A DNA stretch of 44,180 nt, from positions 1-44,180 of IMG/VR virus record IMGVR_UViG_3300032770_000040; one strand, written 5' to 3'. The position numbers and the translations under genes were made by a program. The notes under the pieces are model-generated. The model worked only from the letters and a program-made list of their open reading frames with translations, was not told the origin of the DNA and ran no database searches. Positions 1,191 to 23,112 of this stretch are shown piece after piece. Numbering within the stretch: the stretch's first letter is position 1; each line of letters starts with the position of its first letter. This stretch comes from a virus.

Positions 1191-3133
1191 CAGGTCGTTC
1201 CATCCGTGGCGAAGCCATAACTCACGAGGAGCGCGACCACCGCCGCGAGGGCGGCGTTTCCGCCCTTGCTCCCGGTCAGGTTGATCTTCGCCTGGGGCGT
1301 GGCGCCGTTCGCGCCGAACGCAGCCGTCAGTCCCAAGGATTGGTCGGCGCCGATGGTCATGGCCTTCGTGTTCGTCGTGCTGCCAGAGGCCGTGGTGTAG
1401 ATGTCGAAGCGGGTGCCGTGACTCGTATTCGACCAGTCGCCGACGGCGACTGCTTGGATGTAGGCGCCCGTCGCTGAACTCGACGTGCCATCATGGCCCG
1501 TGGCGCGCATCATGCCAATCGCCTCGGCACCACCCACATGTGTCGGTGAGCTGACGGTGCCGTCCCAGCGGCGCAAATCCACCACCGACTGGTTCGCAAA
1601 GGAGAGCGCGACGTAGGCCGCCTGATTGGAACTGTTCGCGTCGCCGTACAGGTAGATCGTGGCCGGGGTGATCGCCGCCGTCCCCGGGAGCACATACCAG
1701 AGGCCACCTAGCGACACGAGGCGCACCACCATGTTCGTCGCTCCGACGACGTTGATGCCGTTCGGGCAGCAGATATTCCCAGTGCTCAGGCCGTGTTGCA
1801 GGGTGGTCTTGGCATCGAGGCGCACCGTGATCGTCTGCCCGTCTCGTCCGTCGTCGAACGTCGTGATCGTCGTGGGGTTGGAGTTGCTACAGCGCAGCGA
1901 GTTCGTAGCGCGAACACTCGGCGATGTGTCTCCGTCCGTGACGCTCAGACTTTCCGGCTCCGGAGCGGGACCAGTATGATAGTCCCGGACCGTGCCCTTC
2001 GAGGACCCGTTCAAATAGATGTGGACGTTGTTTTGGCGCTCGTTATCGGTGGCGCCGTCGTAGGAACCGTTGTAGAACGCGTACGTGTTGATGGAGGAGT
2101 CGTAGTTGGTGATCCACGCATCCTGCCAATAGGAGTCCGTAAAGTAGAAGCCGCACTCGAAGCCCTCGGCGACCACGCCGCTCACGAACAAGCCCGCGAC
2201 GTTGCCCTTCGTGCAGGCGCCCACCAGGAAGCCGACATAGTTCGACGCTGGGGGCGAGCCGCTGGTCGAGTCACCCGAAAGGAGCAACCCGAAGAAGCGG
2301 TTGTTCCGACCCTGGATGAGTTCGACGCAGGCGTTCGTGCCGACGAGTCCCGTTGGCAGCGCGAAGTTGCAATGGTAGAAGTCGTTTTCGTCCGCGTTAT
2401 CGAGGACGAGCGGTCGCATCGTCGTTGCGACCAGGACGTTGTAGAAACTATTGCGCCAGGCGTGCGGCGCCGACGGATTCGCATTGATGCCAACTGTGGT
2501 CGAGCCCTGGAGATAGAGACCACTGCTGGCGCCAGTGCTGAAGGCTTCAATGATGACGTCCCGCGCCGTGCAGAACTGGGGTTCCGTCATGTGGATGCCC
2601 GTACACGTCCCGGTACAGGACGATCCGTTCAGGTCGAAACCTTCCAACGTGTGGTAGCGCGTCTGATAGGTAGACGTCCCCGAGGGATCCGGGGTCGCGT
2701 TGCCGACCAGGATCGCCGTGGCGTTGTTCAGAACCGGACTGATGTAGGTGGCACGGATCCCAGCGCCAGCGAACTTGATCGTGACGAATTGCTCCACGGG
2801 AATCTGCAGCGTGGCCGTGGTCTTGTAGGTGCCGGGCGGCAAATACACCTTCCCGCCCCCATTGGCCGCGCAGGCGGTAATCGCCGCTTGAATGGCCGTG
2901 GTGTCGTCCGCGATGCCGTTGCCCTTCGCGCCGTAACTGGTGACGACGTTGTAGACGTTTTCGATATTGGGGACGCCAGCGCCATACGTGTACGCAAGTT
3001 CGGCCAGGAGCGCATCGCGCCGTGCCTGGAGGCTATAACTCTTGATCCCCGGCAGCGCCGTCTGCGATTCGTAGGCGAGGATCTCCTCGGCCGTTGCGCC
3101 TTCGCCCGGCAGGGGCCACGGATACTTAGCCAT
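1190..3133 (-). CDS. tailspike with pectate-lyase-like beta-helix
   Basis: A 647-residue receptor-binding tailspike. After a short head-binding N-terminus (about 50 residues) comes the classic start of the phage Pectate_lyase_3 (PF12708) right-handed beta-helix: a YGAKGNGIADDTTAIQAAI block at about residues 68-86, then GGGKVYLPPGTY. Asn/Gly-rich turns run on to about residue 400, and a second beta-rich region follows. Such spikes bind or depolymerise host surface polysaccharide, but the catalytic residues and substrate cannot be assigned here. The ATG at 3133 overlaps the previous gene by 8 bases and has a GGAG ribosome site. Confidence 0.85.
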   Translation of the reverse strand: MAKYPWPLPGEGATAEEILAYESQTALPGIKSYSLQARRDALLAELAYTYGAGVPNIENVYNVVTSYGAKGNGIADDTTAIQAAITACAANGGGKVYLPPGTYKTTATLQIPVEQFVTIKFAGAGIRATYISPVLNNATAILVGNATPDPSGTSTYQTRYHTLEGFDLNGSSCTGTCTGIHMTEPQFCTARDVIIEAFSTGASSGLYLQGSTTVGINANPSAPHAWRNSFYNVLVATTMRPLVLDNADENDFYHCNFALPTGLVGTNACVELIQGRNNRFFGLLLSGDSTSGSPPASNYVGFLVGACTKGNVAGLFVSGVVAEGFECGFYFTDSYWQDAWITNYDSSINTYAFYNGSYDGATDNERQNNVHIYLNGSSKGTVRDYHTGPAPEPESLSVTDGDTSPSVRATNSLRCSNSNPTTITTFDDGRDGQTITVRLDAKTTLQHGLSTGNICCPNGINVVGATNMVVRLVSLGGLWYVLPGTAAITPATIYLYGDANSSNQAAYVALSFANQSVVDLRRWDGTVSSPTHVGGAEAIGMMRATGHDGTSSSATGAYIQAVAVGDWSNTSHGTRFDIYTTASGSTTNTKAMTIGADQSLGLTAAFGANGATPQAKINLTGSKGGNAALAAVVALLVSYGFATDGTT

Positions 3134-3665
3134 CGAACGGGCTCCAGATCAGTTCGCTCGGGGTGATCCCGAAGGTCTGCGCCGCCGTGTTGACCTGCAG
3201 GTTGTAGGGCGGCAAGGTGCCGTCGTTCGTGAACCCGCAGACGACGAGCACGCGGTCGTAGTAGGCGCGCGTCGGCGCGCCCTCGCACGACACATTCACC
3301 GTGAGAATGCCGGGGCCGACGAACGGCAGATTGAGGAACTGCCGGAACCCCAGCAACTGCTGGAACGCGCCCGAACCGCTCAGCCGCATGATGTAGATGG
3401 ACGAGAGCCCCACGCACTGGTTCGGCCACGCCACGTTCAAGGGCACGGTCCACGTGCCGGCGCCCCAGAGCGTGTAGGGCGGCACGGCGATGTCGAAGCT
3501 CACGGCGTACTTGTTCCGCGCCAAGGCGTCCATCGTGATGAGCGTGAGCGTCGTGCCCGGCGTCCCGCCGCACAGCCGGTCGCACGTCGCCCCGTTCGCC
3601 ACCAGCGGCGTCCCGCTCGGCCCCGTGTAGGTGGCCGGCGTGTCGGTCTGCTGAAAGCGCATCAT
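3126..3665 (-). CDS. tail protein, beta-rich
   Basis: A 179-residue protein dominated by predicted beta-strands and containing several Cys (the CDRLCGG segment, two near the middle, one near residue 143). It lies directly upstream of the tailspike and is coupled to its own upstream neighbour by an ATGA overlap at 3662-3665. Position suggests a tail fibre adaptor or a minor tail protein linking nozzle and spike. I recognise no named domain. Confidence 0.65.
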   Translation of the reverse strand: MMRFQQTDTPATYTGPSGTPLVANGATCDRLCGGTPGTTLTLITMDALARNKYAVSFDIAVPPYTLWGAGTWTVPLNVAWPNQCVGLSSIYIMRLSGSGAFQQLLGFRQFLNLPFVGPGILTVNVSCEGAPTRAYYDRVLVVCGFTNDGTLPPYNLQVNTAAQTFGITPSELIWSPFDG

Positions 3666-4099
3666 CCCAAGGCGCTCAGGCCGCGCGTGTCGCGCCGCCG
3701 GATCATCGAGACGTTCGCGTTCCCAAGCTCCACCGGCCGCGTGAAGCCCGTGAGCGTCAGGTAGAGCTGGAATGCGCTCGCCGCGTAGTTCAGCGGCGTA
3801 CTCGTCATCCCCACCGCGCCCGTCGCGAACGTGCGGGTCAAGGTCTGCCCCGTCGCCAAGCCGTCGCGCCAGGGCGTCACGGCGATCGTGACCCCGTTCG
3901 GCGCGTCGAACCGCTGGCGGAACTTCCGCAGCGAGTAGAAGCCCAGCGTCTTCTCGGTCGGGAACTGCGTCGAGAGGAGGTAGGGCGTGTAGGCGCTCCC
4001 CCCGCTCCCATCGACGGCGGCGAAGTCGTTCACCGTCAGGGGATCGTCGAGGCTATAGACCCGGCCCCCGCTCTGGCTCACCACGTAGATCGGGATCAT
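3662..4099 (-). CDS. tail protein downstream of nozzle
   Basis: A 145-residue protein beginning MIPIYVVSQSGG at the ATGA overlap with the nozzle gene. It is compact and mixed polar, with strand-like segments throughout (for example LGFYSLRKFRQRF around 52-64) and an Arg-rich C-terminus (SMIRRRDTRG). Placement between the nozzle-like protein and the fibre genes suggests a minor tail component. No family can be assigned. Confidence 0.65.
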   Translation of the reverse strand: MIPIYVVSQSGGRVYSLDDPLTVNDFAAVDGSGGSAYTPYLLSTQFPTEKTLGFYSLRKFRQRFDAPNGVTIAVTPWRDGLATGQTLTRTFATGAVGMTSTPLNYAASAFQLYLTLTGFTRPVELGNANVSMIRRRDTRGLSALG

Positions 4100-19580: not shown

Positions 19581-20198
19581 TCAGGATGCGTTCTGCGTCA
19601 CGCCCGAGCGATGCACCGGCACCAGGCGCTTGCGCTGCTCATCGACGGCCAGCACGTCGCCCGGCGCCGGTCCCCCGCTCGTCGGGACGCCCGCGCTCCC
19701 CCGCCCCGCCAGGTGCGCCGGCAGCGCCCAGAGGTGCCGGCCATGCACCACGGCCAGGACGTCGTGGGTCTGCCCCAGCGCCCGGAGCTCGGCCTGGAGC
19801 CGCCCCCAGCGGTCGAAGAAGTCGTGGTAGCTTTCCCCGCCCCTGGGCGCCGCCTCATCCGGCCGCGTGTGTTGCAGCCGGTCCAAGGCCGGCTTCGCCG
19901 CCGCCAAGGTCTGCCCCGAAAGCGAGCCCACGTGCCACGTGCGGAGCTCGGCCAGGGGCACCACGGGCACGTCGCCCCCCAGCGCCTCGGCCACCAGGTC
20001 CGCCGTTTCCCGCGCCCGCGGCAGGTCGCTGGTGAAGATCACGGCCGGGGGGTGCGCCTTGAGGGCTTCCCCCACCCGCGTCGCCATCGCGCGGCCCTCG
20101 GGCGCGAGCCCCACCGGCGACCACCCGCGGATCCGTTCGGCCCCCGGCGTCCCCGCGTTGTGGGCCGTCACGCCGTGCCGCACCAGCCAGAGCGTCAC
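19581..20198 (-). CDS. histidine phosphatase family protein
   Basis: A 205-residue protein starting with LWLVRHGVTAHN, the RHG catalytic motif of the histidine phosphatase (phosphoglycerate mutase-like) superfamily. IFTSDLPRARETADLV (about 53-68) supplies the second active-site Arg, and LAVVHGRHLWALPAHL (about 148-163) the second catalytic His. All expected residues appear present, so it should be active. GTGA overlap with the terminase stop places it in the packaging operon. Its substrate is unknown. Phages rarely keep such enzymes among virion genes. Confidence 0.85.
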   Translation of the reverse strand: MTLWLVRHGVTAHNAGTPGAERIRGWSPVGLAPEGRAMATRVGEALKAHPPAVIFTSDLPRARETADLVAEALGGDVPVVPLAELRTWHVGSLSGQTLAAAKPALDRLQHTRPDEAAPRGGESYHDFFDRWGRLQAELRALGQTHDVLAVVHGRHLWALPAHLAGRGSAGVPTSGGPAPGDVLAVDEQRKRLVPVHRSGVTQNAS

Positions 20199-22612
20199 GT
20201 CAGGTCGCTCTCCAGCTCGAAGTCCATGTCGGGATCGACCCGTGTCCGAAACTGCGGCGCGGCCGCCCGCGCCAGCACCTGCCGCGAGGCCTGCGCCTCG
20301 CGGTACGAGGTGCTGTCCAGCGTTTCCTTCAACCGCTGCTCCCGCGTGTCCGGCTCCTCGGGACTAAACGGCCGCACCAACTCGAGGTAGCGCAGGCAGT
20401 CCACCAGGTCGTCGTCGGCCTTGACGGGCGTCCCCGGCGGCGTGCCCGGCTTCTGCCGATACCGCTGCAGTTCCCAGATCAGCCGGCTCTCGTTGACGTG
20501 CCCGTCCCACGAGGAGGTGCAGAGCGTGGGCAGGAACCAGGCGTGCGGCGCCCCGAGCTTGGGGAAGCCGCGCTCGTTCACGTCCGTGGGGTGGGGATGC
20601 CAGGGATCGACCCACGCCGCCCGGTTCACCAGATCGATCGAGGCCTTGACCGACCCCGCGTCCTTCGGCACCGGTGCGGCGAAAATCCCGTGCTCCGCCA
20701 CGTTCACGATGGCCTGCGCCCCCGCCCCGCCCGGGTCCGCGTACACGTCCGGCCGGCATTGGAAGCGCGCCATCATCTCCTGGTAGGCCGTCGCGTGCTC
20801 GGTGTCGGACTTCCCGACGGCATAGTGCTCGGCCACGTAGAAGCGATTCCCCGTGTGGTCGATCGCCGTGAGGAGCCCGCCGTGCCGCTTGTTGGGGTCG
20901 ATCGTCAAGACCCAGCTATAGGGCCGGTTCGGGGGCAGCCCCGGGAGCCAGTAGTCCCGCCAGTTCAAGGCCCAGGGGAAGAGCAATCCCTCGACGAACC
21001 CGTACTCGCCGAAGAGCCGCGTGCGCTTCTCCTGATCCGTGAGCACCGGGTCCGCCGCGAGCCGCGCCGCCCCGTCCCGCGCCGCCGGGTTATCCGCCAT
21101 GCCCATCTGGATCAGCGTCACGTTGTCCTTGCGCCAGACGCGCTCCCGGCGCTGGTATGCGGGCCGCGCCACCGGCTCATAGAGCTTGGTGTGCGTCCAG
21201 TCCATCCCGAGCAAGGGCGTGAACGTGAACACCAAGCACCCGTTCGTCGTCGCAAACCGCTGCATACAGGAGCTGTAGATCCGCGGGTCCTCCGGCTCCT
21301 CATCGACGATGATGAGGTCCACGGGGTCCCCCTCGAACGCGCGATAGCCCTGGTCCTGCGACTTCCCCCAGATCTCCCAGCCGCCGTAGCGGTCCTGGCC
21401 CGTAATCACGGGATGCGGCGACTGCACGTAGGTCGCCCCGAGCCCCACCAGCACCTCGCCCAACAGCGACTGCTCCCAGTTCGACCGCCACTTCTCCCCC
21501 GTCAAGGGCGCCACCCACACCTTCAGGCGCCGCCCCCGCGGGTTCCGGAGCCGCTGGTAGATCGGCCCCTCGCGCCGCACCAGCCGCGCGATGATCCCCC
21601 GACCCGCCTGGGTCTTGCCCGAGTTGTGGTGGAGCACACCCCCGAGCCAGTAGTGGTGGTAGCCCGGGACCTCGAAGTCCCACTTGCGGTCCACGCGGAG
21701 AGGTACTATACTGGTTACCACCAATGCCGGCCCGTCTCGCTCCAACTCCCGATCAAATCGCGGCTCTGCGATCGCTCTTGGCGGATCCCACACTGAGTCA
21801 GCGACAGGTGGCCGAACGGCTCGGCTGGCCCCTCCGGCGCGTCGAACGGCTGATTCCCCGCTTGGGACTCCCCACCCACCGCCGCGGTCGCTTTCGGGGT
21901 CCCACGGATCCCCGCTGGCGCGGTGGTCGGATCGTCGATCGGGATGGCTACGTTCTCGTGTACTGCCCTGGACATCCGCACCCACGGCGGCATACGCGCT
22001 ACGTGCTCGAGCACCGGCTGGTGATGGAAGAGATGTTGGGCCGCTACCTGGACCCCCAGGAGGTCGTGCATCACCGCAACAAGATTCGGTCTGACAACCG
22101 GCCCGCGAACCTGCAACTGTTCGGGACGAATGCGGATCATCTGCGCGCCGAACTGACCGGCCACTGCCCGCGCTGGACCCCGAGCGGTATAGCACGGATC
22201 CGGGCCGCAGCTGCCCGATGGCACGCCAGCCATCCGGTGTGGCAACCCGGTGTTCCGTCGCACACACCCACGCCGCCCCTGAACTGAGCGTCACCCGCAC
22301 CAAGCGTCCCGCGGGCTTCGCGTAGGGCTCCCGCGCCCGCGCCACGACCAACTGACCCGCCGCGTTCTCCGCCCAGACGTGCCAGTCACCGCGGATCTCG
22401 GAGACCACGCGCTCGCAGCCGGCCACGGGGTCGTAGATCGCCTGCTCCGGGCCGAGGCACTGATTGCCGCCCAAGATCACGATGATGTCCGAGTGCGCCG
22501 CCAAGGCGAACCGCTGCTGGCGATGCCACGGGAACGTCGGCCACCACAGCCGCCGCGCCACCGTCTGCCACTCGGCCGGCGTCGTGATCTTCGGGGCCGG
22601 AGCCTCGCTCAA
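20195..22612 (-). CDS. terL: terminase large subunit, interrupted by an in-frame intein
   Basis: An 805-codon precursor; after removal of residues 52-330 the extein is 526 residues, normal for TerL. The ATPase Walker A motif is split: ILGGNQ ends at residue 51 and SGKTQAGRG resumes at 331. Walker B DLIIVDEEPEDP lies near precursor residues 435-446. The nuclease domain begins around WVLTIDPNKRHGG (Asp of motif I), continues with DVYADPGGAGAQAI, and ends near DDDLVDCLRYLEL. TTG at 22612 is chosen because it forms TTGA with the previous stop. Function requires splicing, since the P-loop is otherwise broken. Confidence 0.9.
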   Translation of the reverse strand: MSEAPAPKITTPAEWQTVARRLWWPTFPWHRQQRFALAAHSDIIVILGGNQCLGPEQAIYDPVAGCERVVSEIRGDWHVWAENAAGQLVVARAREPYAKPAGRLVRVTLSSGAAWVCATEHRVATPDGWRAIGQLRPGSVLYRSGSSAGSGRSVRRADDPHSSRTVAGSRAGCQTESCCGDARPPGGPGSGPTSLPSPAGARARSAYAAVGADVQGSTRERSHPDRRSDHRASGDPWDPESDRGGGWGVPSGESAVRRAGGASRAVRPPVADSVWDPPRAIAEPRFDRELERDGPALVVTSIVPLRVDRKWDFEVPGYHHYWLGGVLHHNSGKTQAGRGIIARLVRREGPIYQRLRNPRGRRLKVWVAPLTGEKWRSNWEQSLLGEVLVGLGATYVQSPHPVITGQDRYGGWEIWGKSQDQGYRAFEGDPVDLIIVDEEPEDPRIYSSCMQRFATTNGCLVFTFTPLLGMDWTHTKLYEPVARPAYQRRERVWRKDNVTLIQMGMADNPAARDGAARLAADPVLTDQEKRTRLFGEYGFVEGLLFPWALNWRDYWLPGLPPNRPYSWVLTIDPNKRHGGLLTAIDHTGNRFYVAEHYAVGKSDTEHATAYQEMMARFQCRPDVYADPGGAGAQAIVNVAEHGIFAAPVPKDAGSVKASIDLVNRAAWVDPWHPHPTDVNERGFPKLGAPHAWFLPTLCTSSWDGHVNESRLIWELQRYRQKPGTPPGTPVKADDDLVDCLRYLELVRPFSPEEPDTREQRLKETLDSTSYREAQASRQVLARAAAPQFRTRVDPDMDFELESDLT
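21684..21712 (+). promoter_or_regulatory. sigma70-like promoter for the antisense endonuclease
   Basis: TTGCGG (21684-21689), a 17-base spacer and TATACT (21707-21712) form a good promoter pointing into the HNH gene. The predicted start site (about 21719) is only about 5 bases before the ATG at 21724, so the transcript would be nearly leaderless. The same bases encode TSIVPLRVDRK of the intein C-terminal splicing region on the other strand. Confidence 0.6.
21724..22287 (+). CDS. HNH homing endonuclease encoded antisense inside the TerL intein
   Basis: A 187-residue HNH endonuclease. Residues about 8-50 form a DNA-binding helix-turn-helix (LSQRQVAERLGWPLRRVERL). The HNH_3-type nuclease core runs from RYVLEHRLVMEEMLGRYL (about 92-109) to EVVHHRNKIRSDNRPANLQL (about 113-132), with the catalytic His-His and Asn in place. 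It lies wholly inside the intein, on the opposite strand. Its ATG falls at the linker/C-splicing-block junction and its dispensable C-terminal tail runs antisense to block B. It presumably cuts intein-less terL alleles, driving intein homing. Confidence 0.9.
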   Translation: MPARLAPTPDQIAALRSLLADPTLSQRQVAERLGWPLRRVERLIPRLGLPTHRRGRFRGPTDPRWRGGRIVDRDGYVLVYCPGHPHPRRHTRYVLEHRLVMEEMLGRYLDPQEVVHHRNKIRSDNRPANLQLFGTNADHLRAELTGHCPRWTPSGIARIRAAAARWHASHPVWQPGVPSHTPTPPLN

Positions 22613-22869
22613 TCGTCCACCCGGTCGTGCAACCCGCCCAGCAGCCGGAGCCGCGCCACCTCCCGCTCCAGGTGCGCCACCCGCATCTCCAGCTTCGTGG
22701 TCCGCGACGCCGTCACGTCCACCAGCCACGGCAGCGGCGTCGCCGCCGACAACGCCCCCGTCAGGAGCCAGCGCACCCAGCGCCACGGCTGCCGCCACGC
22801 CGACGGCGGCCGCTCCCGGCCCTCCTCCACCAGCGGCAAGAGGGGCGGCACCGGACCGGTGTGCGTCAT
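22609..22869 (-). CDS. small membrane / coiled-coil protein next to TerL
   Basis: An 86-residue protein with a single hydrophobic segment (WVRWLLTGALSAATPLPWLV, about 31-50) followed by a charged coiled coil (KLEMRVAHLEREVARLRLL). The start at 22869 is preferred over an in-frame ATG at 22902 because it forms ATGA with the upstream stop and has GGAG 7 bases before it. The layout resembles small phage inner-membrane proteins. Function unknown. Confidence 0.65.
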   Translation of the reverse strand: MTHTGPVPPLLPLVEEGRERPPSAWRQPWRWVRWLLTGALSAATPLPWLVDVTASRTTKLEMRVAHLEREVARLRLLGGLHDRVDD

Positions 22870-23096
22870 CTCACCGCTCCGCGCGCTCCAGGCTGTGTCC
22901 ATGCCACGCTGGCCCCTCCCCCTTTTTTCGTCGAGCCGTCGAAGCCGAAGTGGCCGACCGTATACTCGGCGCCGTCCGAGAAGGCGACGCGCTGACCCGG
23001 CCGATGCCGGCTGGCGGCGTACCCCGTCCGTGGAGGCCTACTGGCCCGACGACCAGCGTTCTTGATGCCGTGACCGTCTCGGCCTGGCGTCTTCAC
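22866..23096 (-). CDS. hypothetical 76-residue basic protein
   Basis: A 76-residue Gly/Arg/Lys-rich protein with a central strand-like segment (QRVAFSDGAEYTVGHFGFDG). A GGAGG ribosome site lies 6 bases before the ATG at 23096 and its stop forms ATGA with the next gene, so it is a real member of the packaging operon. No family is recognised. Confidence 0.6.
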   Translation of the reverse strand: MKTPGRDGHGIKNAGRRASRPPRTGYAASRHRPGQRVAFSDGAEYTVGHFGFDGSTKKGGGASVAWTQPGARGAVR

Positions 23097-23112
23097 GTCA
23101 CACCTCCGCGAC

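Follow-up and report, generated by a model that had tools for sequence, protein, structure and literature searches.

An intein in a phage terminase gene, with an HNH endonuclease gene on the opposite strand, looks like one of an overlooked class of mobile elements

The accepted view is that an intein either contains its endonuclease as an in-frame domain or no longer has one. In split inteins, free-standing endonucleases located between the two halves were reportedly described by Dassa et al. in 2009 as ‘fractured genes’. As in the phage locus described here, the endonuclease of such systems is a separate protein tied to the intein; however, a split intein is broken into two genes, whereas here one continuous frame passes through the endonuclease gene. 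Canonical class 1 inteins and mini-inteins, such as Mtu RecA and NpuDnaB (PMC6801210), share with this locus the HINT fold, Cys1, the block B histidine, the terminal His-Asn and a Ser, Thr or Cys at position +1, and the endonuclease of canonical class 1 inteins is likewise placed between the N-terminal and C-terminal splicing regions. In them, however, the endonuclease is an in-frame domain of one polypeptide; here it is a separate protein encoded on the opposite strand, and the in-frame linker is predicted to be unfolded. Mycobacteriophage TerL inteins (Kelley et al. 2016, PMC5050341) are also mobile phage inteins located in TerL ATPase motifs. That work treats endonucleases as part of the TerL inteins; the words ‘antisense’ and ‘opposite’ are absent from its text.

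Two further systems hide an endonuclease gene in another element. The ShiLan domain and Pacc40-type hidden HNH insertions (Arsenault et al. 2025, PMC11855218) contain a homologous HNH in an alternative frame while the host frame stays open, and a sequence search indicated that the HNH described here is homologous to the ShiLan-type HNH. The ShiLan HNH lies on the same strand in another frame, and its insert has no intein motifs; in the present locus, an antisense HNH is combined with an intein. Nuclear rDNA group I introns (PMC9548176) can have an endonuclease gene opposite the splicing element, apparently with its own promoter, as here. In those introns, a ribozyme within an rRNA gene does the splicing, which requires no open protein frame, and there is no dual coding, unlike in the present case. 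The locus is built from known kinds of elements, inteins and HNH homing endonucleases, but the arrangement lacks defining features of canonical inteins, split inteins, ShiLan-type insertions and group I intron systems. An open-library literature search did not find an antisense intein endonuclease; a preprint (10.1101/2025.01.02.630785), which is the main risk to novelty, was outside the scope of that search. An earlier, sequence-only reading of this DNA knew of no described intein of this form. None was found described as such, but many exist in databases, where the host protein is annotated as ‘hypothetical’ or TerL is truncated.

The window, that is, the whole stretch of DNA analysed, is a 44,180-base virus record with a GC content of 70%. 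Its relevant features are as follows.

20195–22612, minus strand: terL precursor gene, 805 codons, interrupted by an intein (open frame, PHROG terminase large subunit match, intein-free relatives).
21623–22459, minus strand: intein, 279 residues from Cys1 to His-Asn, inserted in the P-loop (GGNQ^SGKT).
22184–22459, minus strand: N-terminal splicing region, intein residues 1–92, with Cys1 and block B His70 (pLDDT 93–98; C1 and H70 invariant in 42 relatives).
21740–22183, minus strand: predicted disordered linker, intein residues 93–240, the antisense readout of the HNH gene (pLDDT about 50; divergence tracks HNH codons).
21623–21739, minus strand: C-terminal splicing region, intein residues 241–279, with block F and HHN (pLDDT 87–98; D261, H278 and N279 conserved).
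21724–22287, plus strand: HNH homing endonuclease gene, 187 codons, wholly within the intein.
21763–21864, plus strand: helix–turn–helix region of the HNH protein, residues 14–47 (Pfam HTH_24, E 2e-4, marginally below the Pfam threshold).
22012–22122, plus strand: HNH_3 catalytic motif, residues 97–133 (PF13392, E 2e-10; E96, H97, H117, N125 and N129 invariant).
21684–21712, plus strand: promoter-like site, TTGCGG-17-TATACT, inside the C-terminal splicing region (TATACT and the following bases kept in the related locus L003).

The minus-strand open frame at terL, 20195–22798, has 867 codons from a GTG, and the insert comprises its residues 114–392. The terL start is TTG at 22612, coupled to the upstream ORF 22609–22902, the stop codon of which it overlaps. 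The intein N-terminus, CLGPEQ, directly follows GGNQ, and the C-terminus, HHN, directly precedes SGKT. With the insert removed, terL reads WWPTFPWHRQQRFALAAHSDIIVILGGNQ joined to SGKTQAGRGIIARLVRREGP, which closely matches, around the site, the intein-free TerL of L017 (...VGGNQSGKTQAGRGIVGRMVRREGP). Empty sites in L017, L018 and L019 indicate a precise in-frame insertion at a conserved site and the existence of insert-free relatives. Re-derived coordinates confirmed the earlier description of an 805-codon terL frame whose P-loop is split by a 279-residue insert with Cys1 and HHN. The ORF directly downstream of terL (19581–20198, minus strand) begins with MTLWLVRHGVTAHN and, by eye, resembles a histidine phosphatase.

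Residues C1, H70 (block B) and N279 are invariant among 42 aligned inteins, with D261 and H278 conserved; the Pfam Intein_splicing model matches 37 of 51 precursors. AlphaFold modelling with an alignment of relatives, which left out phage-record rows, gave a pLDDT of mostly 93–98 for residues 1–92 and 240–279 and near 50 for the linker. The top Foldseek matches of the intein model were mini-inteins, including Mtu RecA (2imz) and NpuDnaB (4o1r), with a TMt of about 0.8. The insert is predicted with high confidence to have the HINT fold, representing a mini-intein joined by a disordered linker of 150 residues. The model agrees with the sequence-only proposal of a mini-intein of about 130 residues stretched by a linker, and the splicing domains here appear to tolerate a long structureless linker.

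ShiLan-type insertions keep the host frame open around a hidden homologous HNH (PMC11855218), and the present insert could, by analogy, stay in the protein, tolerated as a loop that surrounds an HNH gene in another frame. Such a reading is highly improbable: none of the splicing residues varies, the predicted HINT fold has high confidence, and the only TerL seen in viable cultured phages would have a disrupted ATPase P-loop if the insert stayed in place. Antisense endonuclease genes are also known in group I introns (PMC9548176), but the probability that the insert is a self-splicing intron, removed from RNA and carrying such a gene, is close to nil, as the insert frame is open and appears to be under amino-acid selection for intein motifs. 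A search of positions 20195–23100 returned no Rfam intron match up to E 1, and a group I or group II intron was ruled out on this basis.

The opposite strand of the insert contains a complete HNH gene of 187 codons with intact catalytic residues, as had been noted earlier; the ORF, the PF13392 match and the invariant residues agree on this point. Among 51 aligned HNHs, E96, H97, R107, H117, N125 and N129 are invariant. The window HNH model has a pLDDT of 89, and a Foldseek comparison with solved structures gave weak matches, including homing endonuclease I-HmuI (1u3e, prob 0.87, E 0.43). At its 3′ end the gene runs for about 104 bp into the N-terminal splicing region, and at its start it shares about 16 bp with the C-terminal splicing region. 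The earlier description of an antisense-encoded linker was correct in that the linker is the antisense readout of the HNH gene, but the gene extends beyond the linker into both splicing regions.

Close to 90 other viral contigs, nine cultured phages and two MAGs have the same layout. When viral contigs were scanned with the HNH protein, L003, L004 and L005 were retrieved at 67, 47 and 56% identity (best segment), each with an intein opposite the HNH. A wider scan and a profile search gave 62 loci with an HNH inside an opposite-strand open frame bearing splicing-domain matches; the 57 of these with both ends found formed 48 clusters at 90% identity and 43 at 50%. The endonuclease is on the opposite strand, and thus out of the intein frame, in 62 of 62 loci, and all loci have one continuous open frame, with no separate genes for intein halves. 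An intein-first scan, queried with a single intein and using patterns derived partly from the linker, added about 30 contigs and showed a full-length antisense HNH in 34 of 34 complete loci. Inteins that have lost the HNH may be under-sampled, because HNH-first sampling requires the HNH and the intein-first patterns come partly from the linker.

The cultured carriers are Pectobacterium phages Ymer, Abuela, Taid, Pappous, Sabo, Koroua and Amona, Dickeya phage Setonix and Pseudoalteromonas phage PHS3. Full reading covered the loci of Ymer, Taid and PHS3; for the remaining six phages, the evidence is the co-location of HNH and intein matches on opposite strands. These relatives were found via the HNH and via the inteins of L022 and L064; a direct search of cultured phages with the window intein returned no match, as did a search of phages with the L031 intein. 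Since more than 90 phage and prophage records have the same layout, antisense-HNH inteins appear to be a class of mobile element that has been overlooked, with two selected proteins encoded on the opposite strands of a single stretch of DNA. This class breaks the rule that an intein endonuclease is either in frame or lost. Mini-inteins that are apparently endonuclease-free and have a ‘junk’ linker may be mobile, with the enzyme encoded on the other strand, where annotation misses it. The TerL precursor of Ymer (L020, OP748252.2) was deposited as a ‘hypothetical protein’ and its HNH gene is unannotated; the TerL of PHS3 (L022, KX912252.1) was deposited in truncated form, adjoining the HNH gene.

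The host genes encode mostly diverse TerLs, as well as SbcC-like, helicase and Sak4-like proteins. The insertion site is mostly the P-loop, before [STC]GK[ST]; the +1 residue is Ser in the window and Ser, Thr or Cys in relatives. In L039 and L062, the insertion is between GK and T of the P-loop, two codons off the usual site. Between L020, from a Pectobacterium phage unit, and L064, the HNHs are 59% and the inteins 50% identical, while the TerLs are 15% identical. By such comparisons, the HNH and the intein move jointly between unrelated hosts.

Certain phage HNH proteins whose genes lie near terminase genes help the terminase. The main functional rival explanation accordingly holds that the intein splices but the HNH is no longer a homing enzyme and is kept for a role in packaging. 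The predominance of TerL among the hosts fits this explanation, as does the fact that every complete locus has an intact HNH gene and decayed copies were not seen. The same element, however, is also present in SbcC-like, helicase and Sak4-like genes; close TerL relatives are devoid of it, its distribution is sporadic, and the intein and HNH travel jointly among unrelated hosts. A packaging role in place of homing is, on balance, unlikely.

A different objection concerns the reality of the two frames. The antisense ORF might be a chance, or ghost, frame in GC-rich DNA, the locus being an ordinary long-linker mini-intein or having one real frame alone. Long spurious ORFs are plentiful in the window, and in the window alone the open antisense frame was found in 5.6% of synonymous shuffles (GC 68%); because of this proportion, the single window locus is only suggestive. 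A chance open frame was possible for the window alone (0.056) and was excluded by the relatives. The two genes keep a single relative phase throughout the 62 loci, with HNH codon positions 1, 2 and 3 opposite intein positions 1, 3 and 2, and the layout and phase are kept in loci down to 37% GC. Across the HNH genes of the 62 loci, the intein frame contains 0 stops, whereas shuffling of synonymous codons within each HNH predicts 365.4; in the two remaining antisense frames, 453 and 575 stops were counted. A check of HNH loci with flanking intein homology for a broken intein frame found none, and the zero count is not an effect of selection by the search, because every HNH locus with intein homology had an unbroken frame. 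HNH relatives located outside inteins have 201 same-phase stops in 4381 codons, whereas those inside have 0 in 10508. In this phase, a Phe codon directly before an A-initial codon invariably gives a stop; this pairing is seen in 27 of 66 cases outside inteins and in 0 of 132 inside.

Divergence by codon position was measured in 62 related pairs with 60–98% identity. In the regions with a splicing function only, the intein wobble position diverges most (0.52 and 0.48 versus 0.19–0.25), while in the linker the HNH wobble position does so (0.48 versus 0.27 and 0.23). In the overlap of the HNH with the N-terminal splicing region, the three codon positions are nearly equal (0.29, 0.28 and 0.34). 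The pattern is repeated in nine independent pairs. According to these rates, the splicing domain and the HNH are each under purifying selection, and where they overlap both are; the linker seems to be free of visible constraint of its own, except for the stop-free frame. In the pair of the window and L003, the last 38 or so HNH residues appear unconstrained as HNH. A ghost frame would have to account for one layout and phase in 62 loci, the family-level lack of stops, opposite codon-position signatures in the splicing region and the linker, and invariant HNH catalytic residues; isolate genomes exclude assembly or search artefacts as the source of the related loci. The probability of a ghost frame is vanishingly small. 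The idea that the mobility and splicing genes are encoded by opposite strands of one piece of DNA gains support from this comparative evidence of selection on both frames and from the structure prediction. The case is an unusually clean one of antisense dual coding, in which the selection on each frame is seen in the codon-position pattern with many independent replicates.

The window HNH would be nearly leaderless, its ATG lying 11 bases after the −10 box, and has no clear Shine–Dalgarno site. Upstream signals were assessed in 47 loci, the expectation being obtained by redrawing synonymous intein codons. A perfect TATAAT occurs upstream of the HNH in 7 loci against 1.4 expected, a Shine–Dalgarno match of at least 5 bases in 12 against 4.7, and a combined −35/−10 score of at least 9 in 47% against 13%. 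Promoter-like and ribosome-site-like sequences upstream of the HNH thus seem to exceed what the intein codons require. Between the window and L003, 8 of 34 wobble positions changed in 21623–21723 versus 34 of 58 in the other splicing-only stretch; the low wobble divergence of the former is consistent with putative promoter signals of the HNH there.

The insert is very probably a protein-splicing element with an antisense, separately expressed homing endonuclease gene and, as such, would be a mobile intein built of two overlapping genes. In the terL-strand product, both insert ends would fold into a standard HINT splicing domain, which would excise itself and ligate GGNQ to SGKT, restoring the P-loop of TerL. 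The separate HNH gene, with promoter-like sequences of its own and, in many relatives, a ribosome-site-like sequence, would occupy the place where other inteins hold an in-frame endonuclease; read from the terL strand, it would be merely a stop-free, unstructured linker. The HNH protein would nick or cut intein-free P-loop genes, and repair would copy the whole insert. The antisense arrangement may let the endonuclease be made on its own schedule, apart from late terL, and the layout would uncouple endonuclease control from late terL expression. Computation establishes the layout, its conservation in more than 90 records, selection on two frames, the intact catalytic residues, the predicted folds, the precise insertion relative to intein-free relatives and the joint occurrence of intein and HNH in widely differing host genes. 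From these we infer splicing, expression of the HNH, its target site and homing; cleavage specificity, splicing and homing are attributed on the strength of family knowledge and conservation. With scarcely less confidence, the element can be assigned to a widespread phage-borne class of inteins in which an antisense endonuclease gene with its own promoter runs through the linker and part of the splicing domain, the two forming a selected overlapping pair in a single phase that has spread among P-loop genes.

The window intein and that of its nearest relative, L011, differ by about 0.4% in DNA versus 3–4% in the terL flanks. The lower intein divergence is suggestive of recent shared homing or conversion, as far as the comparison of one pair, which proves little, allows. 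In L053 (311–4075, minus strand), the host precursor of 1255 aa has a weak in-frame LAGLIDADG match at 1085–1138, possibly indicating a second, conventional intein in the same gene. The methylase gene of a huge phage (L024, LR756508.1, 298264–303620) contains an intein-like insert, CITPDTEI...MFVTGN^S, at 1600–3954, for which Pfam made no intein call. The HNH gene of L024 (1973–2860) is located on the same strand, in another frame, and is a sense counterpart of the antisense layout.
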